Assembly (NCBI GenBank): GCA_003149635.1 | Contig: QCWI01000014.1 | Span: 42,835-106,834 of the forward strand | DNA from: Fluviicola sp. XM-24bin1 | GTDB taxonomy: Bacteria > Bacteroidota > Bacteroidia > Flavobacteriales_D > Crocinitomicaceae | Reading direction: 5' to 3' | Length of the DNA stretch: 64,000 nt | Shown here: in pieces, positions 19,203 through 61,571 of the stretch | How positions within the stretch are numbered: position 1 is the stretch's first letter | How the letters are laid out: the number at the start of each line of letters is the position of its first letter | Position numbers and translations under genes: made by a program | The notes under the pieces: model-generated | Told to the model about the DNA's origin: nothing | Seen by the model: the letters and a program-made list of their open reading frames with translations, nothing else | The model's database searches: none

Positions 19203-20039
19203 GTGGGGTTCTTTGATTTTTTTCAATCCAAAAGAACTCCAAAGTTTGCCAGTGCATTTACACTGGAATGGCGCGCCTATCTCAATGATAAGGTGCAATT
19301 CTACCGGTCGCTATATGATGATGAAAAGCGTCAATTTGAAGATCGTGTACTTCAATTTCTGAATACAACGGAGATTACAGGAATCCAAACGGATGTACAA
19401 GACGAAGATCGACTATTGATTGGTGCCAGTGCAATCATTCCTATTTTCGCTTTTCCCAAATGGGAATATTTCAAATTGAAAGAAGTACTCCTCTACCCTG
19501 CTCATTTCGATTTCGAGCACAACATTGGTCAACGCGTTGAAGATGTCGCCATTCTCGGTATGGTTGGATAAGGTTATATGGATGGTAAGATGATCGTTTC
19601 TCGCAAAGCCCTTCATTTAGGGTTTGACAATGAGGAAGATAAACGAAATACAGCCATACATGAATTCGTTCACCTGATCGATAAGGCGGATGGAAAAATT
19701 GATGGGATTCCAGAACGTCTCATGCATCGTGAGAACGTTATTCCCTGGATTCATTTGATTGACAAAAAGATTGATGAAATCCTAGAAAACGAAAGTGATA
19801 TTCATCGTTATGGCGCTACGAATCGTGCTGAGTTCATGGCAGTGATTTCTGAGTATTTCTTCGAGTGACCGAAATTATTGGAAGAGAATCACCCGGAATT
19901 GTATCATGTTCTTGAAGACATCTTTGAACACGAAATGTCTGACAGAAAACTGGTAGAAAAAATCGAGCCCGTACGTCACTTTGAACCTTGTCCGTGTGGG
20001 AGTGGGAAAAAGTTTCAGGAGTGTTGTATGAAGGGTTAA
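19203..20039 (+). pseudogene. MtfA-like zinc peptidase with SEC-C tail, two in-frame stops
   Basis: One reading frame of 278 codons from GTG at 19203 to TAA at 20037 encodes a whole MtfA/M90-like protein, but it is cut by TAA at 19569-19571 and TGA at 19866-19868. The frame does not change across either stop. The middle part carries the zinc motif HEFVHLID and the NRAEFMAVISEYFFE region; after the TGA the frame continues with PKLLEENHPELY and ends in a SEC-C zinc motif, PCPCGSGKKFQECC. MtfA proteins are zinc peptidases, known in enterobacteria for titrating the Mlc repressor. The TGA is likely a former CGA (Arg). Either a pseudogene, a sequencing error or readthrough. Confidence 0.85.
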
Positions 20040-20081
20040 ATAAAGACGAAAAGAGAAAAGAAAGAAGACTATTACCTAGTG

Positions 20082-20113
20082 AGAAGTGAAAAGTCAGAAG
20101 TCAAGAGGAAGAG
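20082..20113. repeat. Purine-rich intergenic repeat, left copy
   Basis: A purine-only stretch containing AGTGAAAAGT and GAAGTCAA units lies left of the 110-codon gene. The same units occur in inverted orientation at about 20485-20520 on its right side, in rotated order. These are short, imperfect intergenic repeats, not a recognised element. The pair brackets a single small gene. Confidence 0.5.
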
Positions 20114-20115
20114 TT

Positions 20116-20448
20116 TTACCTCGTTCTTTCTAGACCGCAACGATTTATAAATTCCTTTACAACATCCGCGAACTCTTGCTTGTACTCTCTATGAGCATTG
20201 TACTTCCAACTAACGCCGTTTTCTTTAACAATTTTGAAAGTACGGGCATCATACGTGGACATGAAGAAAGACCAAACGCCCATTCCGAACCACCAGCGGT
20301 CTCTATAATGATAGTAGTCGATTTTAACGACTTCAGAATACTTGAACGAACGAAACTCCCAATAATCCATGGCTTTGACCTCAAAATAGTCTTCACGGAA
20401 CCGAATGACGGGAAAGCCGCTTTTATTAAATTCTTTCAATGGAATCAT
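20116..20448 (-). CDS. Hypothetical protein, 110 aa
   Basis: A basic, aromatic-rich protein (many Tyr, Trp and Phe, for example KIDYYHYRDRWWFGMGVW at about 43-60) with a moderately hydrophobic middle. The short hydrophobic segment could be a hairpin against the membrane, but no clear transmembrane helix or signal peptide is seen. No family recognised. It is bracketed by inverted purine-rich repeats and stands apart from neighbouring operons. Confidence 0.6.
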   Translation of the reverse strand: MIPLKEFNKSGFPVIRFREDYFEVKAMDYWEFRSFKYSEVVKIDYYHYRDRWWFGMGVWSFFMSTYDARTFKIVKENGVSWKYNAHREYKQEFADVVKEFINRCGLERTR

Positions 20449-20520
20449 TTAATAATGAAAAGTGCATTTCGAGAGCCTCAGCGTACTTTTCACTTTTGAC
20501 TTCCTTACTTCTTTCTCCTT

Positions 20521-20829
20521 CTACAGAGACTTAAACCATTCCTGGAATTGTGCTCCGAGGACTGGGATTTCTTTCTTCTCGCCGCTGGTAGCACATACCA
20601 AGCTTACGATCCAAAGGGCTACAACTCCCAGATAAATCAACCAACCAATAATAGGAATGATCGCAATTATGGAACCGACGATCCCCATGATTAACAATCC
20701 TAACATTTGACGGATATAGAAACTTGCGTAATCGTCTTTCTTTTCGCCATTTTGTACCACAGCGATAATCCAGCCGATTAATGTAATGTGTGCGATAATT
20801 GCGCGCGTTTTTCCTTCTTCAGTTACCAT
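20521..20829 (-). CDS. DUF4870/Tic20-like small membrane protein
   Basis: A 102-residue protein with three hydrophobic segments (about 9-25, 43-62 and 64-84). The order of a short N-terminal helix, the DYASFYIRQMLGLLI segment and a final GWLIYLGVVALWIVSLVCA helix followed by PVLGAQFQEWF matches the small DUF4870/Tic20-like family, which is widespread in Bacteroidota and of unknown function. It stands alone, 57 bp from the MFS gene stop. Confidence 0.75.
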   Translation of the reverse strand: MVTEEGKTRAIIAHITLIGWIIAVVQNGEKKDDYASFYIRQMLGLLIMGIVGSIIAIIPIIGWLIYLGVVALWIVSLVCATSGEKKEIPVLGAQFQEWFKSL

Positions 20830-20886
20830 AATGCGTGTATTTGGGTTGATTCAGGTTTGAAAATAACAAATTTTCTAATGATCGGA

Positions 20887-22386
20887 TTATGAAAGCACGG
20901 AAACATGCACTTCGTCAGAATCATCGTCCTTATTCGAACGCTTCAAACGCGGAACAAAGAACAAGAGAACGAATCCGATGATAAAGAAAATCGCTACTGA
21001 AATCACCGATGAACGCAAGGAACCGGTGAGCATCTCGAACATTCCGAAGGCAAATGTCCCGAGTACAATTCCGATCTTCTCAGTAACATCAAAGAACGAG
21101 AAGTAGCTTGCGTGATCTTCTGTTTCTGGTAGGAACTTGGAGTACGTGGAGCGTGATAAAGCTTGAACTCCACCCATTACCAATCCAACCGTTGCCGCTA
21201 GGAAATAGAACTGGAACGGAGTCGTTACGAAATATGCTGCGACACAGACACCAATCCAGATCATCACCGAAAGACCAAGTGTTGGAACATTCCCTAACCT
21301 GCCAGACAATCGCGACATTAAGAAGGCTCCTCCAGCTCCAAGAATTTGAATCAGAAGAATCGCGATAATCAATCCCGTATCTCCGCCTGCTGGCCCCCAA
21401 TCCACCTCTTTCTTAGCGAAAAGAACGGCCATTAGCATTACTGTTTGAACTCCTGTATTGTAGAAGAAGAACGCCAATAAGAATCGTTTCAAGCGCTTCG
21501 TTTTCTTGAATTCGTTGAAGACTATTTTCAGCTCCTTGAATCCTTTGCTGAGAACACCTTTTTCCTTCTTCTTTCCGTACGGATTGTTCGGTAAGACACG
21601 ATATGTTATCTGACTGAATCCCAGCCACCAAAGACCAACGAGGATAAAGCAATACTTTGTGTATTCACCTCCGAGCCCCATGATGATCGCCAAACAGATC
21701 ACCAACAAAATCATACTTCCGAAATACCCCATGGAAAAACCACGTGCAGAAATCCTGTCGTGATCTTTAGGTTCGGCAATTTCAGGTAGATAGGCATTGT
21801 AGAATACCAAACTGTTCCAGAATCCAATACTAGCGAGGAAAATGGACAACATTCCTAATTCAATTGGTGCATTGGCAAATCCAACCAATGAGATACAGGC
21901 CAATGCTCCCAAGTAGCAGAAAAACTGCATGAAGCGCTTCTTATTTCCTGAGAAATCTGCCACCCCAGATAACATTGGTGACAATACCGAAACGACTAGG
22001 AAGGATGCCGATAATACATAGGACATCAACACGGAATTCGAAACTTCTGCACCGAAGAATTCAACTGTAGCATTGGCTACGTCAAATCCAGACGGAATTG
22101 CATCATATTGTGCTTCGGTAATTCCGAGCGTATCGATAGCGTAATCATGTTCCGTAACGCGGGAAAGATCGTAATCGAAGTTCGTCGCCTTCTCTGCCTC
22201 CACTCTGGCGTCCAGCGCCGAGATCTGTTCATCGCTGATATTTACTTTATCAACGATGTAGCGTTTTGTGGTAACGTTGTCGTAAAAAATGGGGAAGATT
22301 GCGGAGGAAATCACCAAGTTATACACTGAATTGGCCCAGTCGTACATGACCCAGCCTCTGATGATTTTCTTATTTCCTTTCTCCAT
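20887..22386 (-). CDS. MFS permease, Atg22/UMF1-like
   Basis: A 499-residue major facilitator with about twelve membrane helices. The N-terminus IIRGWVMYDWANSVYNLVI is the signature of the UMF1/Atg22-like branch, whose eukaryotic member exports amino acids from the vacuole. An unusually long outer loop of about 75 residues (about 38-113) separates the first two helices. It lies seven bases after an AlaDH/saccharopine-dehydrogenase-like gene and is the last gene of a four-gene operon, which makes amino-acid-related transport possible; substrate is not known. Confidence 0.85.
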   Translation of the reverse strand: MEKGNKKIIRGWVMYDWANSVYNLVISSAIFPIFYDNVTTKRYIVDKVNISDEQISALDARVEAEKATNFDYDLSRVTEHDYAIDTLGITEAQYDAIPSGFDVANATVEFFGAEVSNSVLMSYVLSASFLVVSVLSPMLSGVADFSGNKKRFMQFFCYLGALACISLVGFANAPIELGMLSIFLASIGFWNSLVFYNAYLPEIAEPKDHDRISARGFSMGYFGSMILLVICLAIIMGLGGEYTKYCFILVGLWWLGFSQITYRVLPNNPYGKKKEKGVLSKGFKELKIVFNEFKKTKRLKRFLLAFFFYNTGVQTVMLMAVLFAKKEVDWGPAGGDTGLIIAILLIQILGAGGAFLMSRLSGRLGNVPTLGLSVMIWIGVCVAAYFVTTPFQFYFLAATVGLVMGGVQALSRSTYSKFLPETEDHASYFSFFDVTEKIGIVLGTFAFGMFEMLTGSLRSSVISVAIFFIIGFVLLFFVPRLKRSNKDDDSDEVHVSVLS

Positions 22387-22392
22387 GGTAGT

Positions 22393-23613
22393 TTATTCGG
22401 TTCCGGCTAAATAGCCCTCCAAATATGAGAAATATTCTGTTAACCCACCATCAAGAGTTGTTTCGCTTGCGCGGGCAATGATTTTATTGGAATCATCACC
22501 TAACAAATGAGGGATCACTTGTTTGATCAATTCGTTTCCAAAATCTTCAGATGCATCCAACGGCAATTCACAAGGCAAATTATCCACGGCCATCACAGCG
22601 ATTACGCCGTCATCCATGAAGTTTCCTTCACTTTCCGTATGCGGATTGTATCCGTAAATAGGCTCACTAATTTTACTTGGACGAATCGTACATGCTACCG
22701 CACAATCAATATCACACGAAATATCAGCAACTACGGACAATCGTACATCTTTTGCTTTCAAATCTTCTCGGGTGATGATAAAATCGGCTTGATCACTCCA
22801 GTAATGACATGGAATGTACATATCCGCATGGCTCAAGAAGCGAGAGAATGTTGATTTGTATGAAGTTGGATCACTGTAAAACCCACCTTTGTCGAATGCA
22901 CCTCCATCGCGTTTTGCGTAATAATCGCTTACATCCAAATGCGTAAATACCGGCCCATCGAATTCTTGCGTTATGAATGCTTCTGGATCTACCTCTTTGA
23001 TTGGCAATTCAGCTAAGATTTCACGTGCTCCGTGGCCTACTCTTCCGAACCCAGTTAGAACGATTTTTGCATTCTTTGGAAGTTGTACCTTTTTCAATTC
23101 TTCCTCCACTTCTTTTCGATCGCGGCATTGGTGTGCTGGCTTCAACTCGTAAAGTCCGTGCTTCAATCCAAAGGTTAGGAACCCGTTGTAACATCCTACA
23201 ATTCCAGCGTAACGGCCAAATCCAAGGATTCTTTTGTTAGATGTGTCCTTGAGAACTTCATAATCAATCAATTGAATTTTCTTATCGATAATTGCCTGAA
23301 GTAAGTCTCTGTTATACGGCTGTTTCTTGATCGTATGGGAGAAGAACATGAACTTCTTGTTGGGAATCAAGTCTTCGATATTCACTTCTTTCACTCCGAT
23401 GATCACATCGCAATCGCTTAAATCTTCCGACATGGGAATGCCCGCAGCAATGTATTCTTGATCCGAATAAGCTCTAATTGGGCTCGGTTGCACTAAAATC
23501 TCCAAGTTTGGGTATTCTTCCAACAAAGCTTTGCATTGACTTGGCGTCAAAGGCACGCGTTTGTCTGGCGGTACCTTTCCCTCTCTGATAATTCCCAATT
23601 TCAAAGTATTCAT
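22393..23613 (-). CDS. NAD(P)-dependent dehydrogenase, alanine/saccharopine dehydrogenase-like
   Basis: A 406-residue protein with an N-terminal alanine dehydrogenase/PNT catalytic domain (LKLGIIREGKVPPDKRVPLTPSQC, about 4-27) and a Rossmann NAD(P)-binding site (IVLTGFGRVGHGAREIL, about 190-206). The overall layout fits Bacteroidota proteins annotated as saccharopine dehydrogenase (NAD+, L-lysine-forming) or alanine dehydrogenase. Which of these reactions it catalyses cannot be settled from sequence by eye. It sits between kdsC (seven bases) and the MFS gene (six bases) in one operon. Confidence 0.8.
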   Translation of the reverse strand: MNTLKLGIIREGKVPPDKRVPLTPSQCKALLEEYPNLEILVQPSPIRAYSDQEYIAAGIPMSEDLSDCDVIIGVKEVNIEDLIPNKKFMFFSHTIKKQPYNRDLLQAIIDKKIQLIDYEVLKDTSNKRILGFGRYAGIVGCYNGFLTFGLKHGLYELKPAHQCRDRKEVEEELKKVQLPKNAKIVLTGFGRVGHGAREILAELPIKEVDPEAFITQEFDGPVFTHLDVSDYYAKRDGGAFDKGGFYSDPTSYKSTFSRFLSHADMYIPCHYWSDQADFIITREDLKAKDVRLSVVADISCDIDCAVACTIRPSKISEPIYGYNPHTESEGNFMDDGVIAVMAVDNLPCELPLDASEDFGNELIKQVIPHLLGDDSNKIIARASETTLDGGLTEYFSYLEGYLAGTE

Positions 23614-23620
23614 GCAGTAG

Positions 23621-24307
23621 TTATTTCAATCGTTCTTCTAATAAGTATTCATCCACAAATTCGCGAATGGCTCCACGCCCTCCATTTGCACTCAGCACAA
23701 GGTCTACCTTGTTTTTAACAGTTGGAACAGCGTCGGCAGGACAAGCTGAGAAACCGCAAACCTCAAAAATTTCGAGGTCGTTGATGTCATCACCAATCAT
23801 TGCCACTTGGTTCAGGTCGATATCTAAAGATGCACAAATATTGCGTAAACGCGTTAATTTTGACTCTTTATTTACCGAACAGTGTTGAATTCCTAACATA
23901 TCAGCTCTCCGCTTTACCGCCGTTTCCGAGAAACCAGACGAAATAATCCCGACTTGGAAGCCTCCTTTTGTCAGCTGCGCGATGGCCATTCCATCTTTCG
24001 CATCGAACTTTTTAATATGATCGCCTTCGTCCGAGAAGTACAAACCTCCATCCGTCATTACACCGTCGACATCCAAGATCAATAATTGAATTGATTCGAG
24101 ACGTTTCTTTAGCTCTCGAGATGGAAAGGTATGTTTGAACAGCAAGGCTGATAAATCCACTTCGTATTCTTCCGCGATGGCCTCCAGGTCGTAGATGGAT
24201 AAATCATTCGGATGATCTACATCCAATTCATCCAGAAAGTCCACGTAATCAAGCCCGTGACGTTCGCAAATCCCTTTGATATTTTGTTCGAGGAAGATCA
24301 TCAGCAT
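23621..24307 (-). CDS. HAD phosphatase, KdsC-like, with N-terminal extension
   Basis: A 228-residue HAD enzyme. The catalytic motif LILDVDGVMTDGGLYFSDEG lies at about 75-94, motif II (IISSG) follows, and motif III/IV is GDDINDLEIF near 171. These match KDO-8-phosphate phosphatase, which makes KDO for lipopolysaccharide; related nonulosonate or acylneuraminate phosphatases are possible. KdsC is normally about 170-190 residues: the extra about 65 N-terminal residues look like a small helical domain (LEQNIKGICERHGLDYVDF) resembling a helix-turn-helix fold. The start at 24307 abuts the upstream stop; an ATG at 24301 is equally good. Confidence 0.82.
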   Translation of the reverse strand: MLMIFLEQNIKGICERHGLDYVDFLDELDVDHPNDLSIYDLEAIAEEYEVDLSALLFKHTFPSRELKKRLESIQLLILDVDGVMTDGGLYFSDEGDHIKKFDAKDGMAIAQLTKGGFQVGIISSGFSETAVKRRADMLGIQHCSVNKESKLTRLRNICASLDIDLNQVAMIGDDINDLEIFEVCGFSACPADAVPTVKNKVDLVLSANGGRGAIREFVDEYLLEERLK

Positions 24308-24691
24308 CTACAATTTTGGTCGGAATAAGGGTTTGAAATTCTTATCCGCAATGACCAATGAAACACGTTCGTCATGAAAGACGCGCACTTGCAGTCGTTC
24401 CTGAAGTGTATCTAGCGAACGAAGATCTTCAAAAGTTAAATCTGAGGGATCCGTTAAGCCGGTGGAAATTAAAAGTAAATCGTAGCCGTCATTCGTTCTT
24501 TTCAAGCGAACATCTTGAGGTTCACCTGTCATGAGCGAATCCTTTTTCCAAAATTCTACGATGCTTTTAGCGAGTTTGTAATCTTTCTTGTCGGCAAAGT
24601 GCACCGTGAATTCTCCTCCCGTAACCTGAGAATCTGAGGAGTCGGTACAACCAATTACAAATAGTATAGCCAGAGAAAGTAAAATCCGCAT
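24308..24691 (-). CDS. Small lipoprotein of unknown function
   Basis: A 127-residue protein with a lipoprotein signal (LAILFVIGC, Cys at about 15), followed by a Ser-rich linker and an alpha/beta domain with no recognised family. It is the first gene of the operon leading into the KdsC-like, AlaDH-like and MFS genes, and its stop codon abuts the next start. Probably anchored to the outer or inner membrane facing the periplasm. Confidence 0.75.
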   Translation of the reverse strand: MRILLSLAILFVIGCTDSSDSQVTGGEFTVHFADKKDYKLAKSIVEFWKKDSLMTGEPQDVRLKRTNDGYDLLLISTGLTDPSDLTFEDLRSLDTLQERLQVRVFHDERVSLVIADKNFKPLFRPKL

Positions 24692-24824
24692 AGTCGATTA
24701 CGGTGTTAAGAGGGCAAATATAGCCATTTCAAAGCATCTGTAGGCGCTATTTCGAGATCAGATTTACACAATCTCATGTGATAATAAACAGATTGATTAT
24801 TTTCATCGGAAATAGTGATTTTTC

Positions 24825-25670
24825 ATGCATTTGATCGAAGAAAAGAACGTCGTTTATACAGGAGCAGACAATCGTGAAAGCTTTTACGACATTACCATTC
24901 CGGAGAATTGGAATAGAAAGTTGATCGTTTTCGTTCATGGATACATGGGCTTCAAAGATTGGGGTTGCTGGCACCTTACGGGGCAATTTTTTGTTGATAA
25001 CTCGTACGGTTTCGTGAAGTACAATGTGAGCCATAATGGAGGCACTACGTCCAACCCGATCGACTTCCCCGATACAGAGGCTTTTTCTAAGAATTCGTAT
25101 TCGAAAGAACTGGAGGATTTTGAGAGGGTGATTGAGACGCTAAACTCAAGAATTCAGTCCGCTGAGGCTCTCGAAGCGGATGATTTTGAGATTTATACGA
25201 TTGGTCATTCAAGAGGCGGCGGAATTGTGGCACTTCAATCTGGACATCCGAAAGTGGCGAAATGGGCGTCGTGGGCGGGAATCTCTTCCATCGAGAAACG
25301 TTTTCCTTCGGGAGAGGCTTTGGAGAAATGGAAGAATGAAACGTATCGATATGTGAAAAACGGTCGCACAAAACAGGATTTACCGCATCATTTCGATCAA
25401 TATTTGGACTTCGAAATGAACAGGGATCGCTTGAATATTCAGCTGCATTGCGAACAAAACGAAAAACCTTGCTTGATTTTGCATGGTCGGGATGATACTT
25501 CCGTTCTTCTTTTGGAGGGAGAAAACCTTTCGAATTGGACGGGCACTCCCCTGGTAATTATTGATAATGCGCAACACACGTTCAATGCTTCGCATCCTTG
25601 GGATGAGGCGAAAATGCCAGCGGAATTAGAGGAAACATGTCGACAAACTTTGTTATTTTTCGAATCATGA
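24825..25670 (+). CDS. Alpha/beta hydrolase
   Basis: A 281-residue alpha/beta hydrolase. The oxyanion region is IVFVHGYMGFKDWG (about 33-46), the nucleophile elbow is GHSRGGG with Ser at about residue 129, an acidic residue lies in LHGRDDTSVLL (about 221-231), and the catalytic His is in NAQHTFNASHPW near 250. No signal peptide, so cytoplasmic. The closest relatives are likely dienelactone hydrolase/acyl-peptidase-like proteins of Bacteroidota; substrate unknown. Its TGA overlaps the ATG of the following TerB-like gene. Confidence 0.88.
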   Translation: MHLIEEKNVVYTGADNRESFYDITIPENWNRKLIVFVHGYMGFKDWGCWHLTGQFFVDNSYGFVKYNVSHNGGTTSNPIDFPDTEAFSKNSYSKELEDFERVIETLNSRIQSAEALEADDFEIYTIGHSRGGGIVALQSGHPKVAKWASWAGISSIEKRFPSGEALEKWKNETYRYVKNGRTKQDLPHHFDQYLDFEMNRDRLNIQLHCEQNEKPCLILHGRDDTSVLLLEGENLSNWTGTPLVIIDNAQHTFNASHPWDEAKMPAELEETCRQTLLFFES

Positions 25671-26071: not shown

Positions 26072-26165
26072 ATAAAAGACCGCTGCGCTGAAAGAAGAAA
26101 GATCGCTGCGCTTAAAGAAAAAAGATAAAAGACCGCTTCGCTCAAAGAGGAAAGAGAAAAGACCT
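26071..26165. repeat. Tandem short repeats of the GACCGCTGCGCTcAAAGA family
   Basis: Directly after the TerB-like gene, three imperfect copies of a unit of about 30 bp occur (near 26074, 26100 and 26127), each with a core like GACCGCTGCGCT followed by purine-rich AAAGA(G)GAAAG. The same core is found at 51619-51639 and inverted at 51745-51765, so this is a dispersed intergenic repeat family. Confidence 0.7.
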
Positions 26166-30262: not shown

Positions 30263-30263
30263 T

Positions 30264-31700: not shown

Positions 31701-31735
31701 AAAGTGCCTTGGGTTTCCTGAGGCACTTTTTTTTT
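31701..31735 (+). terminator. Intrinsic terminator
   Basis: A hairpin with stem AAAGTGCCT / AGGCACTTT around a ten-base loop, followed by a run of nine or more T. It ends the hydroxybutyryl-CoA dehydrogenase transcript and lies just upstream of the next gene's start at 31748. An in-frame start at 31709 inside this hairpin can therefore be dismissed. Confidence 0.9.
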
Positions 31736-31747
31736 ACATTTATATAC

Positions 31748-32656
31748 ATGAAACAACTGGTATCGTTCGTCGTCGTAATCATTACTTTGCAACCAGCATC
31801 TGCGCAAACAGGAAACCTTATTACCAACGTGGACTTCGTCAAGGATGTTTCATGTGCTACCTACAAATTAGAACTCAGCAATCCTGATACAACCCTTTTC
31901 TATTCCAACCTTCGTGATCGTGACACAGTAAAAAATATTCCGGAAGGCTTGTACAACGCCATGTTCTATTCATGTGATTCGGCATATCACTACGGTCAAA
32001 TCATAGAAATTCTGGAAAATGACATGCGCTATATCTACTTCAGAAATACAGCGTATGTTAGTGAGAATAGAGAGGAGGATTTGTACTCTGATGATTACTA
32101 CTACGACTATTATGATTCTTTGTACGCTCCAGTTTACTTTGGTGTGACGTATCAATTCGGCCGTGGGTTTGATTTTGACAATGAAAATCCGAATTTGCTC
32201 AATAACTTTTCCTTTGACATGATGTTAGGCCATGATTGGTTGGTTACAAAACCCTTCGGCATTGGATATGAAATCGGTTATGGATTCACGAGAGCCAATT
32301 ATGTAGGAGAAGATTTAGAAGATCCAACAATTCGACACGAGAAACAACGATTTACAACACTGGATTTCAACTTTGGATTGCTCACTTCGATCTACATAAA
32401 AGAGCGTAAATTCATGTCCATCGGTGCACGTTATCGCCTTCCCTACTACGCACGATATGCGAGAATCAATGGGAACGATAAACTTACCACCGGCGGCTTA
32501 TATCGATACAATGATTTTTCCGTGTTTGCTCAATTGGGATATAATTGGGGCTTCGTCTTTGCTGAATACCGATTCAATCAAATATTCCGAAGTCCATTGG
32601 GAGACTTACCCAATCTATCCATCGGTGTTCGCTTTGGATATCGCGAAGAATTCTAA
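31748..32656 (+). CDS. Outer-membrane beta-barrel-type protein, paralogue 1
   Basis: A 302-residue protein with signal peptide ending in PASAQ, starting at the ATG at 31748, downstream of the terminator. A short N-terminal domain (about 20-130, with an acidic Tyr-rich segment DDYYYDYYDSLYAP) is followed by a region of alternating hydrophobic residues and aromatic strand ends (YQFGRGFDF, IGYEIGYGF, MSIGARYRLPYY, WGFVFAEYRF) and a final Phe, all typical of an eight-stranded outer-membrane barrel. Function unknown. A broken paralogue follows 50 bp downstream. Confidence 0.78.
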   Translation: MKQLVSFVVVIITLQPASAQTGNLITNVDFVKDVSCATYKLELSNPDTTLFYSNLRDRDTVKNIPEGLYNAMFYSCDSAYHYGQIIEILENDMRYIYFRNTAYVSENREEDLYSDDYYYDYYDSLYAPVYFGVTYQFGRGFDFDNENPNLLNNFSFDMMLGHDWLVTKPFGIGYEIGYGFTRANYVGEDLEDPTIRHEKQRFTTLDFNFGLLTSIYIKERKFMSIGARYRLPYYARYARINGNDKLTTGGLYRYNDFSVFAQLGYNWGFVFAEYRFNQIFRSPLGDLPNLSIGVRFGYREEF

Positions 32657-32706: not shown

Positions 32707-33627
32707 ATGAAATCGATTCTACTCATTCTATGCACCGCACTTGTGCAGTTCTCATTTGCTTAAACCGGAAGTCTAAATTGCCAAATTACCTTCAATGGTA
32801 TTTCAGAATGTCGCACAGTGTACGTTTCTATGACTTCTGTCACTGATACTTTGGAGTTCAAGCAAGTGAGCGTAAACGATACCTTAACAGAGATTCCGGC
32901 AGGCTTGTACCAGCTAACAGCATCGTCTTGTGATAATTCCATTCAATACTCTCAGTCCATTGAAATTGTCGCGGATCAAATGCGCTTCTTCATTTACACA
33001 GGAGGTGCTCGAATTGGAGATGAAGACAACCCAAATTTCTACAACCCGTTGAACCCAAGGTACTACTATGGCTACATGTATGATACAAACTACACGTACG
33101 ATCCTATTTATGTCGTTCACGGCTTTCAGTTTGGACGCGGGATTGACATCGGAAATGAAAACGATCCAGTAGGCGATTTCGCTTTAGATTACACCGCAGG
33201 TCAGGATTTCCTCGTCACCAAACCCATTGCCATTGGTTACGAAGCGGGTTTCGGATACTAGCAAACGAACTACTCTACTACTGACTTTCAGGATACCAGC
33301 GTCGTGTACGAAAGTCAAAAAGTATCTTCCTTGCATCTGAGCTTTGGAGCCGTTGCTTCGCTGTACGTGAAAGGCAATCGTATGATCGCAGTTGGGGCTC
33401 GTTATCGTTTCCCATTATATACAAGATGGACACGATCCATTGGAGATGATCTTAACGTAACGCGCGGCCTTTCTACGCTCAACGATCTTACCGTTTTCGC
33501 ACATTTGGGCTACTACTGGGGATTCGTTTTCGCTGAATATCGATTTGCAGACCTTTATGAATCTCCGTTGCAGAGTCCTTCGCAATTAACAGCCGGCGTT
33601 CGCTTCAATATTCCATTTGAGTGGTAA
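32707..33627 (+). pseudogene. Broken outer-membrane-type paralogue 2, two in-frame stops
   Basis: One frame from ATG at 32707 to the stop at 33625 encodes a protein parallel to its upstream neighbour along the whole length (FQFGRGIDI, FLVTKPIAIGYEAGFGY, GARYRFPLYTRW, WGFVFAEYRF). It is cut by TAA at 32761-32763 and TAG at 33259-33261, without frame change. The first stop sits exactly where the paralogue has the Gln after the signal-peptide cleavage site (SFA-stop-TGSL against ASA-Q-TGNL), so CAA became TAA. The second reads GFGY-stop-QTNY and fits CAG to TAG. Confidence 0.9.
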
Positions 33628-34942: not shown

Positions 34943-35429
34943 ATTGGCGGATTCCCCAAAAGCTATAGGTACTCACAGAAATCCATTCATTCACTCTATG
35001 GCTATTAGAAATGCGTAAATAATATGGATCTCCCACTACGTTGTCAGAGGCAAAGAAAAACTGGGAATCATATTTCCATCCAGGTATGGTTGTCGAATTG
35101 CTGGTGAACGTTACAGGTTCTTCGAAGAAATAAGGAATATTGTACATGCACTTCAAGGAATCCTAGTGCGAATTGCTCCAGATTCTAGACACTTCAATCG
35201 TAATGGTCGTATCCAGGATGGTGTTGGTGACCACCTGAAGGTTTACCCAATCGTAGCTGATAAATTCTCTAATTACCAATTGACCTGTATATGTTCCCGG
35301 AATACTGTCCTGAATGTGTGAACAGACGCAAGATTCAGGAAAATACTCTTCCGAAGAATGCTCAAATGATTCTTTCTTACAACTCCAAAGAATCACGCTC
35401 AAAAGCGATATGACTAAAATACTTTTCAC
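34941..35429 (-). pseudogene. Small lipoprotein gene interrupted by one TAG
   Basis: The frame from ATG at 35429 encodes a lipoprotein signal (SLLSVILWSC, Cys at about 17), then runs to a TAG at 35163-35165 and continues in the same frame for 73 further codons to the stop at 34941. The joint reads WSNSH-stop-DSLKCMYN, and one C-to-T change from CAG would give it. Both halves look like one beta-rich domain. A truncated but functional 88-residue lipoprotein is also possible. Its start overlaps the previous gene by four bases. No family recognised. Confidence 0.65.
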
Positions 35430-35818
35430 TGTTTCTTTTTGAAATAACCCTCTTCATGACGGAACGGAAGTAGGAATATTTTAAAGACGTTATCCTCTGA
35501 CAAGTAGGCTATGTTCGGTTCTCCAGATTTGGTCTTTAAACGCAATAGAATTTGATTATCATGCCACCATTTGACTTCCAGGATGCGAAAACGCCGTTCT
35601 TCCTTCCCATTCTTAAAAAAGATGAGTTTGCTGTTATCGGTGATCCGAATGCCGTACTTCTCTGGTGACATTCCGCTATAGATGGCGCTACTTCCTTCGC
35701 CGCTATACATCCAATCGTAGTCGCCTTTGACGCGCTCAAAATCACCTTCAAACTTGGCCTTTTCGCAAGAGATAAGCAGTAAAACAATGAATAATGTGTA
35801 TGCAAGGTGTTTGAGCAT
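35426..35818 (-). CDS. Small lipoprotein of unknown function
   Basis: A 130-residue protein with signal peptide and lipobox LLLISC (Cys at about 18), followed by KAKFEGDF and a beta-rich domain with GDYDWMYSG and an acidic/aromatic pattern. It overlaps the next (broken) lipoprotein gene by four bases, so the two were co-translated. The theme of a short lipoprotein measuring around 110 mature residues recurs in Bacteroidota, but I recognise no function. Confidence 0.72.
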   Translation of the reverse strand: MLKHLAYTLFIVLLLISCEKAKFEGDFERVKGDYDWMYSGEGSSAIYSGMSPEKYGIRITDNSKLIFFKNGKEERRFRILEVKWWHDNQILLRLKTKSGEPNIAYLSEDNVFKIFLLPFRHEEGYFKKKQ

Positions 35819-35858
35819 TCTAATCCACTTAACGGTACTAGCTGTATCATGGTTGGCG

Positions 35859-35950
35859 CTAATGAAACTTATTGAAATCGCGCTGACGCTTCTCTAAGAA
35901 GGCATTTCTTCCATTTTCGGCTTCATCGATTCCGTATGCCCTTGCTTCAT
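35859..35950 (-). pseudogene. 3' remnant of a menB-like gene
   Basis: The reverse strand reads EARAYGIDEAENGRNAFLEK, then RQRDFNKFH and a TAG. The end of the intact menB gene nearby reads AYGTDEAEEGRNAFLEKR followed by RQRDFSKFPKFP. Identity at DNA level is high over about 85 bp, but there is no start or upstream coding part. The copy is in the same orientation about 0.5 kb downstream of menB's end, so it is a tail of a lost paralogue or a partial tandem duplication. Confidence 0.85.
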
Positions 35951-36120
35951 ACTGTTAGCTTAACGCTGTTAAAAAACACTCTAATACGCTATATTTCAAT
36001 AGCTTAATATTCATTCGCATCCTACAAAGGAAAGCCCGCGCTACTTCAATGTTCATACAGTTCCTAATTGACCTAAATAAATCTATAACTTACTGAATGT
36101 CAATATCTAAATAGATAATC

Positions 36121-36396: not shown

Positions 36397-37239
36397 TTAC
36401 GGAAACTTCGGAAACTTACTGAAATCGCGTTGGCGCTTTTCTAAGAAGGCATTTCTTCCTTCTTCGGCTTCATCGGTGCCATAGGCCAAGCGTGTCGCTT
36501 CTCCGGCATACACCTGCTGTCCAACCAAGCCATCGTCAATTAGATTGAATCCAAACTTGAGCATCTTAATCGCTGTAGGGCTTTTCGTCATGATTTCCTG
36601 CGCCCAATCGTAGGCGGCCTGTTCTAATTCATCGTGTGGAACGACTTTGTTCACCATACCCATTTCATAGGCCTCTTGCGCCGAATAATCAAATCCAAGG
36701 AAGAAGATTTCACGCGCACGTTTCTGTCCAACCTGACGCGCTAAATACGCTGAACCGAACCCGCCATCGAATGAGGCTACATCTGCATCTGTTTGCTTGA
36801 AAATTGCATGTTCTTTGCTGGCCAATGTCATATCGCAGACTACGTGGAGGGAATGTCCTCCACCTACGGCCCAACCTGGAACTACAGCAATAACGACCTT
36901 GTTCATGAATCGAATTTGACGCTGTACATCCAAGATATTGAATTTGTTCACACCGTCCAATCCTTGGTAGCCGCGCTTGGCACGCACACGCTGGTCACCT
37001 CCGGAACAAAACGCCCAACCTCCATCTTTGGGTGACGGCCCTTCACCGGTGATCAACACCACTCCAATTTCTTGACTTTCGTGACAGATTATTAACGCTT
37101 CCAACAACTCATCTACCGTTTTCGGACGAAAGGCATTGCGTACCTCAGGACGATTGAACGCGATTCTTGCCACGCCATCCGCCATTTTGAAGGTAATGTC
37201 TTCGTACTCTTTTACGATTTTCCAATCAATTCCACTCAT
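36397..37239 (-). CDS. menB: 1,4-dihydroxy-2-naphthoyl-CoA synthase
   Basis: A 280-residue crotonase-fold enzyme that closes the second ring in menaquinone synthesis. Features are DITFKMADGVARIAFNRPEVRNAFRP (about 11-36; the Arg/Asn-rich RPEVRNAF is a MenB mark), GEGPSPKDGGWAFCSGGDQRVR (about 65-86), the catalytic VVPGWAVGGGHSLHVVCDMT and SFDGGFGSAYLARQVG, and the C-terminal RQRDFSKFPKFP. No other men genes are nearby. A fragment resembling its C-terminus lies downstream at 35859-35950. Confidence 0.96.
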   Translation of the reverse strand: MSGIDWKIVKEYEDITFKMADGVARIAFNRPEVRNAFRPKTVDELLEALIICHESQEIGVVLITGEGPSPKDGGWAFCSGGDQRVRAKRGYQGLDGVNKFNILDVQRQIRFMNKVVIAVVPGWAVGGGHSLHVVCDMTLASKEHAIFKQTDADVASFDGGFGSAYLARQVGQKRAREIFFLGFDYSAQEAYEMGMVNKVVPHDELEQAAYDWAQEIMTKSPTAIKMLKFGFNLIDDGLVGQQVYAGEATRLAYGTDEAEEGRNAFLEKRQRDFSKFPKFP

Positions 37240-46308: not shown

Positions 46309-47360
46309 TCAAAACGGCGATGCAAATTTTGGGTCATTAATAAAGGAACTGTCTGACATTGTTTTTAGAAAATTGATAATGTCTTTCTTTTCCTCATCCG
46401 TTAAATGCATCCCGCGTCTATTTGAATGTGCCATTCGGCTATCCGTTTAGGGTGCGTCCACCACTTGTTCGCTGTAGAAATCCAAAACTTCTTCCAGGGT
46501 GGCAAATCGGCCGTCGTGCATGTAAGGCGCTGTAAATAGTAAGTTTCGTAATGAAGGGATTTTAAACTTACCAAGGTCTTCCTGATTCCCAGTTACAGCT
46601 GCCAGTCCAACATCCATTCCTTCGTTTAATTCATACCACTGTAATCCATTATTCACAATCTGTCCAGTTGTTCCTAGGGCATTTCCATCTGATGTATGGC
46701 AGTGCAGACAATTTCCTTTGTTTTGATCGTTCACATTAGTACGAATCCGCGGTATTCTGATTCCGTGAGGTATTTTTCCCCTCGCAGCACCTGATCGAAT
46801 TTTGCATTCGCCGAGATCATGGAACGTTCGAACTGTGCAATCGCAAAAGCTACTTTTACACTATCGATTTGTGAGGTTCCAAACGCAGCCTCAAAGAGAT
46901 CGCGATAGACGTCATCATTCTTCAAGCGTTTTACCACTTCTGTCCATCGCACATCCATCTCATCGTGCTTTCGAACAGGCTCGAAGACCTGGGACTCCAA
47001 TGAATTCGAACGTCCATCCCAAAACAATTGCGGATACCATGCTAAATTGAATAGTCCTGGAGTATTTCTTAATAATGTTTCGCCATGAATGCCAATTCCT
47101 TTGGTTTTGCCATCGCTAAATGCAAATTCCTGCTTGTGACAACTAGCGCAAGAGAATGTCCCATTCCCACTAAGAATCGGATCATAGAACAGGCGTCGTC
47201 CTAATTCGATTCCTTCTTTCGTCAGCCGATTGTTGTCGTTCACAGGCATATCAGGAAACGCGATAGGCGTTCCGATAACGACATCGGTTGGCCCATCTGA
47301 ATCAAGCTGCAACGATAGAAAGATCGCTCCAATCAGGAAGAAGACAATGGCTCCTTTCAT
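46309..47360 (-). pseudogene. Di-haem cytochrome c peroxidase, broken by a frameshift and a stop
   Basis: The frame from ATG at 47360 has an export signal and the first haem site (CASCH at about 79-83) with surrounding GRRLFYDPILSGNGTFSC and GKTKGIGIHGETLLRNTPGLFN. At about 46734 one base appears lost: the reading continues in another frame with NDQNKGNCLHCHTSDG (second haem CLHCH) and the methionine/tyrosine region MHDGRFATLEEV. A TAA at 46447-46449 then interrupts it, and the same frame continues to LTDEEKKDIINFLKTMSD and ends in NDPKFASPF. Intact homologues are periplasmic peroxidases or MauG-like oxidases. Confidence 0.88.
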
Positions 47361-47363
47361 GGC

Positions 47364-48283
47364 TTAATGCTGAACGATGATGTCAAAACTCCATTTCTCG
47401 AAATTAGTCTGGACTTCCAGCATGTAATTTCCCTCGGGGAGATCGGCTACATCCAGAAAGATCTCAGAGTTCGATACATTTTCGAAGTATCGTACACGCT
47501 GCCCTGTCATATTATATAAAGCCAATTTCTCAATAATATGGAATTCAGTTTTCTTCTCGGTAACTATGTTAATGCGATCATTCGCGGGATTCGGATAGAC
47601 CTCCATGTAGTCATCCGGTTTGATTTCATTAATTGTGTGCACCCAAGTCGGTTCGGAGAGAACGTTGTCGATCATCCAGCCGTCATTTGGAGTTGCCACC
47701 CCTCCCGTGCTGTCACTCACGAAAGTGTATCGAACTCTGAGATCTTCCTGGAGTCTCATCCATGACACATCGAAACACAACCAGACATTGCGCCAATTCG
47801 TATCCACGCCGACGAACCCTTCATCAATATTGGCTACCCAACCATAATTTTGCTGGTCGTATCCGAAGAAATTATAGACATAAGGATTGTAGAATGCATT
47901 GACCCATGTGGCGCCGCTATCGACAGAAACTTCAAGGATGCCGCTATCTCACGGGCCAAAATCTAATTTCTGTTCCCATTGAAATGCCCAGTTTCCAAAC
48001 CAGTTTTGAGGAGATTCTACTGTCGCCGTTACTCGAGAGGTATCCAAGGCAGGGTATGGAAGATGGTGTCGGTAACCAAAACGTTCGGTGCACTGTACGG
48101 ACTATCGAAGACAGCTTTCTGGGGAGGCCCAATTTGCCAAATGTTGTTGGGATTGGTGGTATCTATTTCGAATACAACAGAATTCCATGTAGCTGTGTCG
48201 GCACCGTCAAACTATTGGGTATAATATTGACCATAAGCGGTAAAGCCCCAAATTAGGAGCAAAGGGAATAGCAGAGTTTTCAT
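47364..48283 (-). pseudogene. Secreted T9SS protein, broken by two stops and a frameshift
   Basis: From ATG at 48283 the signal peptide and start of a secreted protein can be read (LLIWGFTAYGQYYTQ), then TAG at 48212-48214, then FDGADTATWN and WQIGPPQKAVFDSPYSAPN, familiar from Crocinitomicaceae T9SS proteins. A one-base loss near 48050-48057 shifts the frame, and TGA at 47949-47951 (likely a former CGA) interrupts the part before DSGILEVSVDSGATWV. The C-terminal part is intact, with a T9SS sorting domain (VYPNPANDRINIV ... LPEGNYMLEV). It lies three bases upstream of the broken peroxidase gene, so both decayed together. Confidence 0.88.
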
Positions 48284-54517: not shown

Positions 54518-54538
54518 TTGAATTCTAGAAAAGACATT

Positions 54539-56623: not shown

Positions 56624-56642
56624 GGATATATCCTTCTACTAT

Positions 56643-56676
56643 AAGCCCCTGACACTTCGGTGATCAGGGGCTTTTT
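56643..56676 (+). terminator. Intrinsic terminator
   Basis: Perfect stem AAGCCCCTGA / TCAGGGGCTT with an eleven-base loop and TTTTT. It ends the M16 operon. Confidence 0.93.
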
Positions 56677-56712
56677 CGTAACCTTTGGCCGCTACCTTGC
56701 GTATATGTGCGC

Positions 56713-57552
56713 ATGAGATGGTTATTTCTCTTACTATCTATGTGCGCTTTCCATGCGAACGCAAGGATTGAGCTGCAATCCGTTTACTTCATCGGAAAGT
56801 CAACGGAATTGACGGAGTATTCGGGTTTTATCCTCGAACGACTCAAATCGTCTTTTACCAATGGAGATTATCAAATCATCGAAATCAATGCTTTTTGCGA
56901 AGGCTCTTCTACTTCAGAATGCAAGATGATTGCGTCTAAACGATTGATCAGCGTACTCAATAAGCTGGAGGCCGATAGTGTTGATGTTACCATGAATAGC
57001 TTCGGAACAGAGCGGATTCCCATTAATTTTGAACCTGTGCATTGGAACCGGGTTGATATTTATTACTCAGTGGTAGAAGCTTGGAGAAATCAGGACAAAC
57101 CGTTAGAAGCACAGAGGATCGATTCTACAGTAACGAAAGATAGCCTATCCGCATTGATTCATACACCTGAGGATAACGTTGATAACTTTGTTGAAATTCC
57201 TGAATTTGATTTAATCCCAGTCAATAAACCCGTTGCAGTCCCTCTCTTTTTTGAAGAGAATAAGGGCATTATGAAGAAAGAAAGTTTGCCCGTTTTGGAT
57301 CAACTCTATCGAACCTTAATGTCCTATCCAGATTTGAAAGCTCATTTCAGAGGACATGTTTGTTGCGGACACAATAACCGTATCAGTTCAAAAAGGGCAC
57401 GTTATGTGTATAAATATCTCCGTAAGCGTGGTGTTCCGAAGGAGCGAATCTCATACAAAGGATATAGCAATACGATTCCTTTAGTTACTCCCGAAAGAAC
57501 CGATGCCGACAGAGCAAAAAACCGTCGTGTAGACGTAATTTATACAAAATAG
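56713..57552 (+). CDS. OmpA-domain protein
   Basis: A 279-residue exported protein starting at ATG 56713 (a GTG at 56707 is also in frame), with signal peptide ending in FHANA. It has two OmpA-like parts. The N-terminal one (about 20-115) has ELTEYSGFILERLKSSF and the RVDIYYSV ending, and the C-terminal one (about 180-279) has the peptidoglycan-binding pattern RISSKRARYVYKYLRKRGVPKERISYKGYSN and NRRVDVIY. The C-terminal segment carries RGHVCCG, shared with the next gene. Probably tethers the envelope to peptidoglycan. Confidence 0.85.
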   Translation: MRWLFLLLSMCAFHANARIELQSVYFIGKSTELTEYSGFILERLKSSFTNGDYQIIEINAFCEGSSTSECKMIASKRLISVLNKLEADSVDVTMNSFGTERIPINFEPVHWNRVDIYYSVVEAWRNQDKPLEAQRIDSTVTKDSLSALIHTPEDNVDNFVEIPEFDLIPVNKPVAVPLFFEENKGIMKKESLPVLDQLYRTLMSYPDLKAHFRGHVCCGHNNRISSKRARYVYKYLRKRGVPKERISYKGYSNTIPLVTPERTDADRAKNRRVDVIYTK

Positions 57553-57553
57553 A

Positions 57554-57982
57554 ATGCGCGTTTTATTATTCATATTCATGGTATTCGGCAGTGTGTCCAT
57601 TGGGCATACGCAGGATGTGGAATTGGATACAGCATTACGCAAAAATGAGAGCGTCTATGAGTTTTATATGCCTTACTTCGGTGCTGAATCGGACGTAGAT
57701 ATGAACTATCAGTATAAGCTGGAGGAAATGGCCTTATGGCTGCAACGCGATACTACGATACACCTGCATATCAGAGGACACGTTTGTTGCGGTGAAGGCT
57801 GGCGATTAAGTCGTTTGAGAGCACATCGCGTATATCGATTTCTACTGGATAAAGGTGCCCCACCTGAGCGACTAAGCTACAAAGGTTATAGCAATTCCTG
57901 TCCGAAGCGATGGCCGGAACGAACGGAAGAAGACGAGAACCTAAATCGCCGTGTGGATTTCGTCATTAGAAAGTTGCGATAG
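57554..57982 (+). CDS. Short OmpA-domain protein
   Basis: A 142-residue exported protein with signal peptide ending in IGHTQ. It is a minimal OmpA C-terminal domain: RLSRLRAHRVYRFLLDKGAPPERLSYKGYSNS and NRRVDFVIRKL at the end, with RGHVCCG at about 76-82. The same RGHVCCG occurs in the upstream OmpA protein; the Cys pair replaces residues that are usually small or polar, so a disulfide or metal site is possible. It starts one base after the preceding stop; tandem duplication is likely. Confidence 0.85.
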   Translation: MRVLLFIFMVFGSVSIGHTQDVELDTALRKNESVYEFYMPYFGAESDVDMNYQYKLEEMALWLQRDTTIHLHIRGHVCCGEGWRLSRLRAHRVYRFLLDKGAPPERLSYKGYSNSCPKRWPERTEEDENLNRRVDFVIRKLR

Positions 57983-58022
57983 ACCAATGTGATTGGTACA
58001 TTAGATGCTCTAATTTGGCATC

Positions 58023-58715
58023 ATGACACAACTCGCAAAACACAACCTTACTTTTCTCGAAGATCTCAAGAAAAACAACAACCGTGATTGGTTCCAAGCC
58101 AACAAACCGGTGTACGAGAAGAATCACAAAGAACTGATTGCTTTTGCGGATGAGGTATTGGCAAAGTTGAATGAGCACGACGTCATTGAAACTGAATCTG
58201 GAAAGAAAAGTCTCTTCCGAATTTACCGGGATGTGCGCTTTTCAAAGGATAAAAGTCCGTACAAAACGCATTGGAGCGGTGGATTCAAACGTGCGGGTAA
58301 ATTACTTCGTGGTGGTTACTACTTCCACGTTCAGCCAGGTGGCAACTCCTTGGTGGGCGGCGGATTCTGGGGGCCGAATAAAGAAGATTTACAGCGTATT
58401 CGCGAAGAAATTGCCACAGATGCCTCTGAATTGCGCGAAATTCTTGCTGATAAGACCTTTGTAGATACCTTCGGAACGTTGGACGGTGAGCAATTGAAGC
58501 GTGCTCCCAAAGGCTTTAATCCCGATCACAAAGACATCGACCTGCTTCGTTATAAGCAATTTATATTCTCACGAAGTTTTACGGATAAGGAAGTACTGGC
58601 TCCCGATTTCACCGATAAATTGGATCATGCTTTTCAGGCCATGCGACCTTTCTTCGATTTCATGAGCGATGTTTTGACTACTGATTCGAACGGAGTCCCA
58701 CTATACGATGAGTAA
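58023..58715 (+). CDS. DUF2461-domain protein
   Basis: A 230-residue cytoplasmic protein. Family marks are FLEDLKKNNNRDWFQANKPVYE (about 12-33), RIYRDVRFSKDKSPYKTHW (about 67-85) and the glycine-rich GYYFHVQPGGNSLVGGGFWGPN (about 98-119). DUF2461 proteins are widespread and poorly characterised. It overlaps the ogt gene start by eight bases, so the two are co-translated; a link to alkylation repair is only a guess from that. Confidence 0.93.
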   Translation: MTQLAKHNLTFLEDLKKNNNRDWFQANKPVYEKNHKELIAFADEVLAKLNEHDVIETESGKKSLFRIYRDVRFSKDKSPYKTHWSGGFKRAGKLLRGGYYFHVQPGGNSLVGGGFWGPNKEDLQRIREEIATDASELREILADKTFVDTFGTLDGEQLKRAPKGFNPDHKDIDLLRYKQFIFSRSFTDKEVLAPDFTDKLDHAFQAMRPFFDFMSDVLTTDSNGVPLYDE

Positions 58716-59217
58716 TCTTCTGAAAGTCGCCTCTATTGAAAGTCCTGTAGGTGCATTAACCGCGGGATTTACCCAAAACGGTTTGGCGCTCCTCTCTTTC
58801 TCTACCCTTGATGCCTTGGAACTCCCAAAAGGGTTGAAAGATTTCGAACTTGCAGAAGAGAATACAAAGGATCACATCGATTTGAAGCGGCAACTAAAGC
58901 GCTACTTTAACGGTGAATTACAAAATTTCGATCTTTCCATAGATTTCCATGGTACCGATTTTCAACAAAGCGTTTGGCAGGCCTTACTGAAGGTTCCGTA
59001 TGGAAGTACACGATCGTATAAAGAACAAGCAACGATTCTGGGAGATGTTAAAGCCATTCGAGCGGTTGCGACTGCCAACGGAGCCAATCCAATTGCCATT
59101 GTGGTTCCTTGTCATCGAATTGTAGGGTCGGATCAGTCATTAACTGGGTACGCCGGTGGATTGGAACGCAAACAATTCCTATTGGAACTAGAAAGTAATC
59201 AGGGAAGATTGTTTTAA
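58708..59217 (+). CDS. ogt: Methylated-DNA--protein-cysteine methyltransferase
   Basis: A 169-residue suicide enzyme that removes methyl groups from O6-methylguanine and O4-methylthymine. The C-terminal domain has FQQSVWQALLKVPYGSTRSYKEQA (about 91-114), RAVATANGANPIAIVVPCHRIVGSD with the acceptor Cys in PCHR at about 135, and GYAGGLERKQFLLELE. The short N-terminal domain lacks the Ada regulatory zinc site, so this is the Ogt type. It overlaps the DUF2461 gene. Confidence 0.96.
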   Translation: MSNLLKVASIESPVGALTAGFTQNGLALLSFSTLDALELPKGLKDFELAEENTKDHIDLKRQLKRYFNGELQNFDLSIDFHGTDFQQSVWQALLKVPYGSTRSYKEQATILGDVKAIRAVATANGANPIAIVVPCHRIVGSDQSLTGYAGGLERKQFLLELESNQGRLF

Positions 59218-59338
59218 TGGGTTAGCAACTTGTCGGGGTTTTAAAAATCAGATATTTCTCAATTTTCCTTCCTGTTTCGCTGTATGTACCAACCAACTTG
59301 AACTGAATTTCACTCGTAAAAACAGCTGCTCCCATTTC

Positions 59339-59992
59339 CTAGAGCGTACTATATCCTTCAAATTCTTCTACCCAGCGTTCGCCACAATTCGATTGCACCC
59401 TTTCTCTAATTTCTTCAGGAGTAACATTTAAATTCGGCTGAGATAGGCCGTCTGCTTCGTTGAGTTTCAAACCATCAACAAGACTCACCTCCTTCCATTC
59501 AGAAGTCCATTCTCTCAAGTCGTTAAGGACACAAAATGGTACTTCCATGATCTGATTCGAATTTATCCCGATGTGGTTCACGTCTCTGTGATATAGTTTT
59601 ACATCCACAATATTGTCGTCTTCAAAACGGAACGACTTGTCATAAAACCACTCGCCTGGGAATAGATCGAAATAAAGCGTGTCTTTATTTGCAAAGTAGA
59701 TGGGATCATCCATGCCTTCAATATCATCATCCCAATACCCTTCCATGCGCTCCACGAAAAGAGACACATCTGAAAACCGAATTTCCTGCCAATCGATGCT
59801 GCCTTCTCTAACAATTGAAGGGGGCGTAGCTTCTAACGTATCAATCTTCTCAGCAATTACCCGAGGTTCGCCAGGCTCAACTTTTTTCTCTTTCGGCTTA
59901 TTGTCCTGAACGCAGCCTGAGAAGATGGTCATCAAAAGCACCAATAGCATTAGGATACTCCCATTGCTGATCTGTTCTCTTTTAGTGATCAC
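59339..59992 (-). CDS. Lipoprotein of unknown function
   Basis: A 217-residue protein starting at GTG 59992, which overlaps the stop of the upstream broken gene (GTGA); an ATG at 60010 is further inside that gene and less likely. Signal peptide with basic ITKR start and lipobox TIFSGC (Cys at about 27), then a Lys/Glu-Pro linker and an acidic domain with Trp/Tyr residues. No family recognised. It is downstream of the broken TPR/MORN-like gene, and is its probable operon partner. Confidence 0.65.
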   Translation of the reverse strand: MITKREQISNGSILMLLVLLMTIFSGCVQDNKPKEKKVEPGEPRVIAEKIDTLEATPPSIVREGSIDWQEIRFSDVSLFVERMEGYWDDDIEGMDDPIYFANKDTLYFDLFPGEWFYDKSFRFEDDNIVDVKLYHRDVNHIGINSNQIMEVPFCVLNDLREWTSEWKEVSLVDGLKLNEADGLSQPNLNVTPEEIRERVQSNCGERWVEEFEGYSTL

Positions 59993-61571
59993 AAGGAGTA
60001 GTTCTTCCATGTTCCGTGCGATTCTCCTTCCTTGTAAGTTCTCTCCTCGCGGATTTTGCCATCAGGATAGTAACGAACGACTTTTCCGTCTACGTCGCCA
60101 TCTTTGTAATCTACCTCATATTCAACGGATTCTTCCCCACGGCGGTGGTACGAATACCTTTTCTCAATAAGATCTCCTTCATCATAAATAGATAAATTCA
60201 CTAAAGCTCCAGCTTCTGTGTATTCGCGAACTTCGCCGTGACGTTTCCCCTCTTTTACATTGATCAACATGCGCAGCGCTCCGTTACTATGGAATAGTTT
60301 GGTAACACCATTCAGCTCGTCATCTTTGTAGGTATTGATTTCTGTCAAAGTTCCGTCGGCAGCGTAACGCTTCCACGTTCCTGATTTCTTTCCGCCTTCA
60401 AAATACCCCTCTGTGCGAAGCGCTCCTTTTTCGTTGTAGAATTTCCAATCTCCTTCTGGAGCTTCATCTTTTAAGAACCCGATAGCTACTGGAACCTTGT
60501 CTTCATAAACAGTAAACGGCGTCATTCCGTTTTGCTCCTCTCCACCACCGAATGTCAATTGACATTGCGTTCTGTACTTCCCAATGAAATCGCGAATGTC
60601 AGATACTTTCTTGTTTACGATTTTCTTGTACTTCGAATTCTCAACAGAATAACACACCGTGTATGTATAAGAATTGAAATGGTCGTTTCCGATATGTATT
60701 GGTGCAATGGAACATAGTACTTGTCCCAGAATCCACCAGCGCCTTCGAATCCACTCAATTGCTTCATCATCGCGTAGTTCTGCTTCACCAAAGCAAGGTT
60801 GATTTTGTTCGGAATTTTGAAACTTTTGTTCAATGAAGCAAAGTTGGAAATCAAAAGGTCAATTTCCTCAAAGCTTTCGCTGTCCTTGAACTCAATATCG
60901 ATTAAATCTTCGGTGTACTTCTCGCTCATCAAGGAATTGTACACTTGCAATACTGTGAACGATCTTTCACCATCTGGGTTCAAAATCAATTAGGTATTGA
61001 AGCACATCATCGCCTGCGTCAACAAGTTGCTTTCCATACACAACAATCCCAAGTTTAAATGACTTGAAGCGTGCGTTGGATGACAAAGAATTGCTCCTTG
61101 ATACGACTCTGCTGCATCATTGTATCGCTCCAAACCTTTCAATGCCACTCCACGATTGTAAAGCAGCAAGTAGTTCTTCGGATATGATTTCAGGGCTTCA
61201 TCGAAACTTTCTAAAGCCTCCTGATTCTTTTCTGAACGCAAGAAAGCTACACCTTTGTTCACGTAGAAATCTGCAATGTTCTAGTTGTGTGATCTTTTAA
61301 GTCCTTCATCACAAACTTCGATAGCTTCGTCATAACGCTCCAATTCTATCAAGGCGCTTGCCTTAGAAACCAACAAACTTGTATATACAGAGTCGTTTTC
61401 TGGAACTTTATCAATTTGTCGAATGATTTCCATGTAATCACCCGAAGCATTGGCTTCAGCTACACGGTAAGGAACAAATTCACTAACAGGTTCTGAGATA
61501 AACTGTTGAGCGAAGGAAGTGGTTGTTACGGCCATTAATGCTGCTGCCAAAACATAAATGCGAATTTTCAT
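59989..61571 (-). pseudogene. TPR plus MORN/YwqK-like repeat protein, broken by two stops and a frameshift
   Basis: From ATG at 61571 the signal peptide ends in TTSFAQ and a TPR domain follows (about 20-180). TAG at 61281-61283 (HN-stop-NIADFY) and TAA at 60990-60992 (FNT-stop-LILNPDG) interrupt it in frame. After residue about 300 a lost base near 60670 shifts the frame to one reading NSYTYTVCYSVENSK and then about eight MORN/YwqK-like units (GDWKFYNEKGALRTEGYFEGGK, GTWKRYAADGTLTEINTYKDDE) to the stop at 59989. An intact version would be an exported protein of about 525 residues. Confidence 0.88.

Follow-up and report, generated by a model that had tools for sequence, protein, structure and literature searches.

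Interrupted genes in a Fluviicola contig: probable young pseudogenes with a mixed spectrum of nonsense changes

A 64,000-nucleotide stretch of the genome of Fluviicola sp. XM-24bin1 (G000:C14:42835-106834, hereafter the window) contains six genes, designated here g1 to g6, that carry in-frame stop codons. We consider at least five of the six to be ordinary young pseudogenes of accessory genes, a reading to which we assign a probability of about 0.85. In five of them (g1, g2, g4, g5, and g6), the frame is broken where the frames of homologues are open. The ten stops listed in an earlier, sequence-only reading are present at the positions and in the frames it gave; those at 46447 and 47949 count as in frame after a frameshift, and minus-strand coordinates denote the last base of the codon. 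Among the causes offered there, recent gene decay is the one favored by the open relatives, the clustering of the lesions, and the mixed nonsense spectrum. The assembly comprises 3.63 Mb in 19 contigs and is 99.86% complete; the 3' edge of the window is the end of contig C14 (106,834 bases). Altogether 60 genomes, including this one, were compared, so that 59 relatives were searched. Two of them, G018 (contig C14) and G025 (contig C45), are placed in one genus with it and have their genes in the order seen in the window.

The lesions are strongly clustered. All 13 of them, namely ten stops (that of g3 included) and three frame changes, are confined to 6 of the 57 window genes that we selected from the list of open reading frames (ORFs), and lesions placed at random by length would be confined to so few genes (six or fewer) with P = 0.0002. 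Amino acid replacements point in the same direction: g4 and g5 together carry 74 changes specific to this genome versus 36 specific to G018, compared with 734 versus 600 in 33 intact genes (one-sided Fisher P = 0.008), and g4 alone shows an excess as well (one-sided P = 0.026). These three-genome counts cover genes that have a counterpart in G025, which excludes g1, and omit the G018 gene at 23158-24078, which also matches g2. Because the lesions cluster and g4 and g5 bear extra replacements, decay is preferred over random error.

The breakage seems to be recent. Relative to G018, dN/pS is 0.13 for g1 and 0.13 for g5, equal to the median of 34 intact genes (0.13), and 0.26 for g4, a value found among intact genes. 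Since these ratios lie at or within intact values, the three genes probably stayed under constraint for the greater part of the period after divergence from G018. All six genes also appear to be accessory, given their patchy occurrence: g1 is matched in 29 of 59 relatives (distant paralogues included), g2 in 5, and g3 in 1, while g6 seems to have a single true counterpart. The lineage probably ceased to need certain accessory genes, in which nonsense changes, small insertions and deletions, and amino acid changes are now accumulating. The neighboring genes g5 and g4 may have lost their function as a unit, in which case both members would decay.

The interrupted genes and their relatives

The coordinates of the six genes are collected in the table below. 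In the window as a whole, the Rfam search gave no match and ARAGORN found no tRNA.

Table. Genes with in-frame stops in the window (positions counted from its first nucleotide)
Gene	Coordinates	Strand	Description
g1	19203..20039	+	broken MtfA-type zinc peptidase gene; Peptidase_M90 and SEC-C
g2	32707..33627	+	broken second copy, 39% identical to the intact gene at 31709-32656
g3	34943..35429	-	lipoprotein-like frame with TAG at 35165-35163
g4	46309..47360	-	broken di-haem cytochrome c peroxidase gene; CCP_MauG
g5	47364..48283	-	broken gene for a type IX secretion-tailed protein; Por_Secre_tail
g6	59989..61571	-	broken TPR and MORN_2 repeat gene

When its stops are replaced by X, the g1 product resembles MtfA peptidases, matching the family over residues 15-241 together with the SEC-C motif. 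It differs from them in being interrupted twice and in starting with GTG, where all 17 aligned relatives (17 of 120 listed homologues) have Met. The closest named protein relative among the homologues listed comes from a Crocinitomicaceae bacterium (83%), and no match was found in G025. Opposite the TAA at 19569, the aligned proteins have Tyr (14/17) or Phe (3/17), and the 14 genome loci have Tyr in six cases, Phe in one, and other residues in seven, with the codon TAC in G018. Opposite the TGA at 19866, Arg stands in all 17 proteins and in 11 of the 14 loci (CGC in G018). Recurrence of such stops in MtfA of other relatives had looked possible, but L017, the one inspected among those flagged, is free of stops across its 45.6% tblastn alignment (g1 residues 19-245), and the lead was dropped.

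No Pfam family was matched by g2 or by g3. The TAA of g2 at 32761 corresponds to Gln, encoded by CAA, in all four covering copies, including the paralogue in the same genome by which this residue had been pinned before. The TAG at 33259 is paired in five copies with Thr (three times), His, and Ser, and with Gln in none.

The frame of g3 is not firmly shown to be broken, as a single weak relative is available for comparison. The profile match to it (36%, E 4.9e-4) covers residues 5-94 and so extends across the stop at residue 89, whereas the tblastn match is confined to residues 1-52, short of the stop; the frame of this relative has 167 codons, similar to the 162 for g3 read through. Homology or design had been said to continue past every stop; clear homology to open relatives does so at nine of the ten, and one weak match at 35163. 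A segment of approximately 1 kb (34949-35972), which includes g3 as well as a 130-aa frame that is intact (35426-35818), stands where G018 has approximately 100 bases. Nearby, 75 bases (35865-35939) match the 3' end of a gene that is intact at 36397-37239 (84%, residues 252-276 of the G018 protein). They appear to be the remnant of an incomplete copy, adjacent to DNA absent from G018.

The genes g5 and g4 probably form a unit (46309-48283), of which both members are broken here, because the pair, with the peroxidase gene after the secretion-tailed one, recurs in relatives: in each of the six whose g5 match reaches 42% identity or more (G018, G025, G027, G041, G051, and G057), a g4 match lies close by on the same strand. 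Over its N-terminal piece, g4 agrees with the CCP_MauG domain of di-haem peroxidases, and the orthologues in G018 and G025 are open; unlike them, g4 goes out of frame downstream of that domain and contains a further stop. The frame is lost near 46731-46736, where the gene is two bases longer than in both of these genomes. The further stop, TAA at 46449-46447, stands opposite Glu in the two near orthologues (GAG and GAA) and opposite Asn (six) or Thr (six) in 12 more distant loci. In g5, the TAG at 48214-48212 corresponds to Tyr in six of eight loci, including both near orthologues, and the frame is one base short of that of G018 near 48050-48062. The TGA at 47951-47949 corresponds to Gly in both near orthologues (GGG and GGT) and to Phe, Ser, Met, Leu, and Leu in five distant loci.

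Proteins with TPR repeats were found in all genomes when g6 was searched for, but only the match in G029 (47%) resembles a true counterpart. Compared with it, the frame of g6 is lost at 60684-60678 by approximately one base, the flanking parts being 46% and 39% identical. The TAG at 61283-61281 falls at a variable site (Lys, His, Pro, Pro, Tyr, Phe, and Asp in relatives), and the TAA at 60992-60990 is opposite Tyr in the two nearest relatives and opposite Phe (three times), Ser, and Ala further off. The frame of this nearest relative runs to 1,098 aa and contains far more MORN-like repeats, and that of g6 stops after approximately 520 codons; this shorter form could be natural length variation or further truncation. 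As to the frame changes, single-base losses had been described in three genes, and this description fits g5 and apparently g6, while in g4 two bases were gained.

Sequence error, selected loss, and points against decay

Several observations weigh against decay as the explanation. The lesions are known from the assembled sequence alone, and the residue in the nearest relative is a guide to the ancestral codon, not proof of it; at 19569, for instance, Ser, Asn, Thr, or Trp is present in 7 of 14 genome loci, all of them at most 56% identical. Where its six nearest relatives share a residue, g1 has four further replacements, and those relatives themselves have 3 to 9, so that g1 shows no excess. 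Its replacements also fall below the neutral-drift expectation of 15-19 missense changes per nonsense change. The excess of replacements in g5 alone falls short of significance (P = 0.077), and the dN/pS of g4 is inside the intact range of 0.01-0.33. Moreover, the broken share of the window exceeds the level outside it, as raw shares, with 3 of 45 loci (g1, g4, and g5; relatives with at least 50% identity) versus 2 of 171 in six sampled stretches of 40 kb each from the same genome. The genes g2, g3, and g6 fall outside the count of 45, having no relative of at least 50% identity in the compared stretches.

The corresponding counts are 1 of 138 in G018 and 1 of 182 in G025. Loci were counted from ORFs of at least 100 aa and breaks were scanned from ORFs of at least 90 aa, the candidates being sorted by eye. 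Four were set aside after alignment (own C4 near 24921 and 38146, own C1 near 37025, and G018 C11 near 36553); in our judgement these are frames on the wrong strand, of low complexity, or upstream of a start. Others were set aside from the listing alone: 9570 in the window, upstream of the start of 8203-9564; a four-stop frame in G018 C1 (38608-38827); and late stops in G025 C45 near 69305-69320. Four breaks were retained as likely real: own C7 near 16630, own C1 near 29059, G018 C1 near 28666, and G025 C45 near 88930-88945 (positions within the sampled stretches). The first of these is a frame change in L101 (G000:C7:128501-148500), where the G018 gene is an open 528-aa frame; the gene is likely another broken one outside the window.

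Sequencing or assembly errors could lie behind part or all of these lesions, and of the alternatives this one survives best, although we regard it as unlikely. In its favor, both nearest relatives were assembled from metagenomes, as this genome may have been, and g1 has changed little apart from its lesions. Errors should, however, scatter by gene length, and the clustering described above rules them out as the sole cause if they are random. Of the 171 loci compared elsewhere in this genome, 2 look broken, and among its 39 ABC_tran matches a stop occurs in a single one, which is under the family cut-off. None of the shifts of frame in g4, g5, and g6 falls in a long single-base run, and errors would not explain the excess replacements in g4 and g5. 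Sequence error, one of the causes suggested at the outset, is therefore made less likely by the clustering and is retained with a low weight.

Slightly less plausible still is the idea that the loss was selected rather than merely tolerated, with the MtfA peptidase and the peroxidase/secreted-protein pair switched off in a recent change of lifestyle. Under selected loss, lesions would outpace amino acid drift, and g1, with two stops, a changed start, and few other changes, has that appearance.

The C-to-T question and the genetic code

The sequence-only reading described each stop as reachable from CAA, CAG, or CGA by one C-to-T change and proposed a C-to-T mutation bias or damage as a possible cause. 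In the standard code table, TAA, TAG, and TGA are what CAA, CAG, and CGA, respectively, become after one C-to-T change. As a signature, this wording is uninformative, because every stop codon qualifies; the claim needs the residues found in relatives, because any list of stops looks C-to-T.

Alignment to intact homologues, which the same reading had recommended, places Gln or Arg opposite two of the seven scorable stops in the nearest relatives (32761 with Gln, 19866 with Arg). The other five stand opposite Tyr (19569, 48212, and 60990), Glu (46447), or Gly (47949), from which C-to-T yields no such stop; a single step from these residues to these stops is a transversion. The stops at 33259, 61281, and 35163, left out of this count, remain compatible with C-to-T change. 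In 51 intact window genes, C-to-T changes at Gln codons and CGA make up 9%, 17%, or 26% of nonsense opportunities at transition weights of 1, 2, and 4, at which two or more fits among seven are expected with P = 0.13, 0.34, and 0.58, respectively. The potential sources of nonsense changes in these genes are Tyr (13-19%), Glu (13-18%), Gln (8-21%), Gly (5-8%), and Arg (4-6%), with Tyr and Glu the commonest at weights 1 and 2, and the mixture of residues at the seven stops agrees with these shares. Judged by the residues in relatives, two fits of seven is what unbiased nonsense mutation would give.

A test for an excess of C-to-T changes, also recommended before, was made on g4 and g5. Among changes specific to this genome (G018 = G025), C>T and G>A account for 52 of 248 in these genes (0.210) versus 805 of 3410 in the 33 intact genes (0.236), and there is no excess relative to those genes (one-sided Fisher P = 0.85). 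It is thus very improbable that a C-to-T bias or cytosine damage drove the decay, although the residues at 32761 (Gln in all four copies) and 19866 (Arg) fit such a change.

Least probable of all is regulated readthrough, or the reassignment of at least one stop codon: homology does continue beyond nine of the ten stops, but g4, g5, and g6 carry frame changes too, the usual stops terminate conserved neighbors, and in the nearest relatives TAA is opposite Tyr, Gln, Glu, and Tyr, and TGA opposite Arg and Gly, so that, with mixed residues and no one amino acid for each stop codon, no single reassignment works. A changed code had already been called unlikely, a view that stands, and regulated readthrough, which had been listed as a possible cause, finds no support in these comparisons.

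Place among bacterial pseudogenes

As ordinary young pseudogenes, these genes would be nothing unusual. In a survey of 64 prokaryotes (Liu et al. 2004, PMC522871), no less than 1 to 5% of the gene-like sequences are pseudogenes. The surveyed cases resemble those in the window in having premature stops and frameshifts relative to intact relatives, with several lesions per gene. We see no essential difference from the present cases, which look young and occur in a Crocinitomicaceae-like bacterium.

The analysis removes a false lead, as any list of stops described as reachable from CAA, CAG, or CGA mimics C-to-T mutation. What remains is probably a small set of young pseudogenes, two of which make up a conserved pair, and their value lies mainly in annotation.

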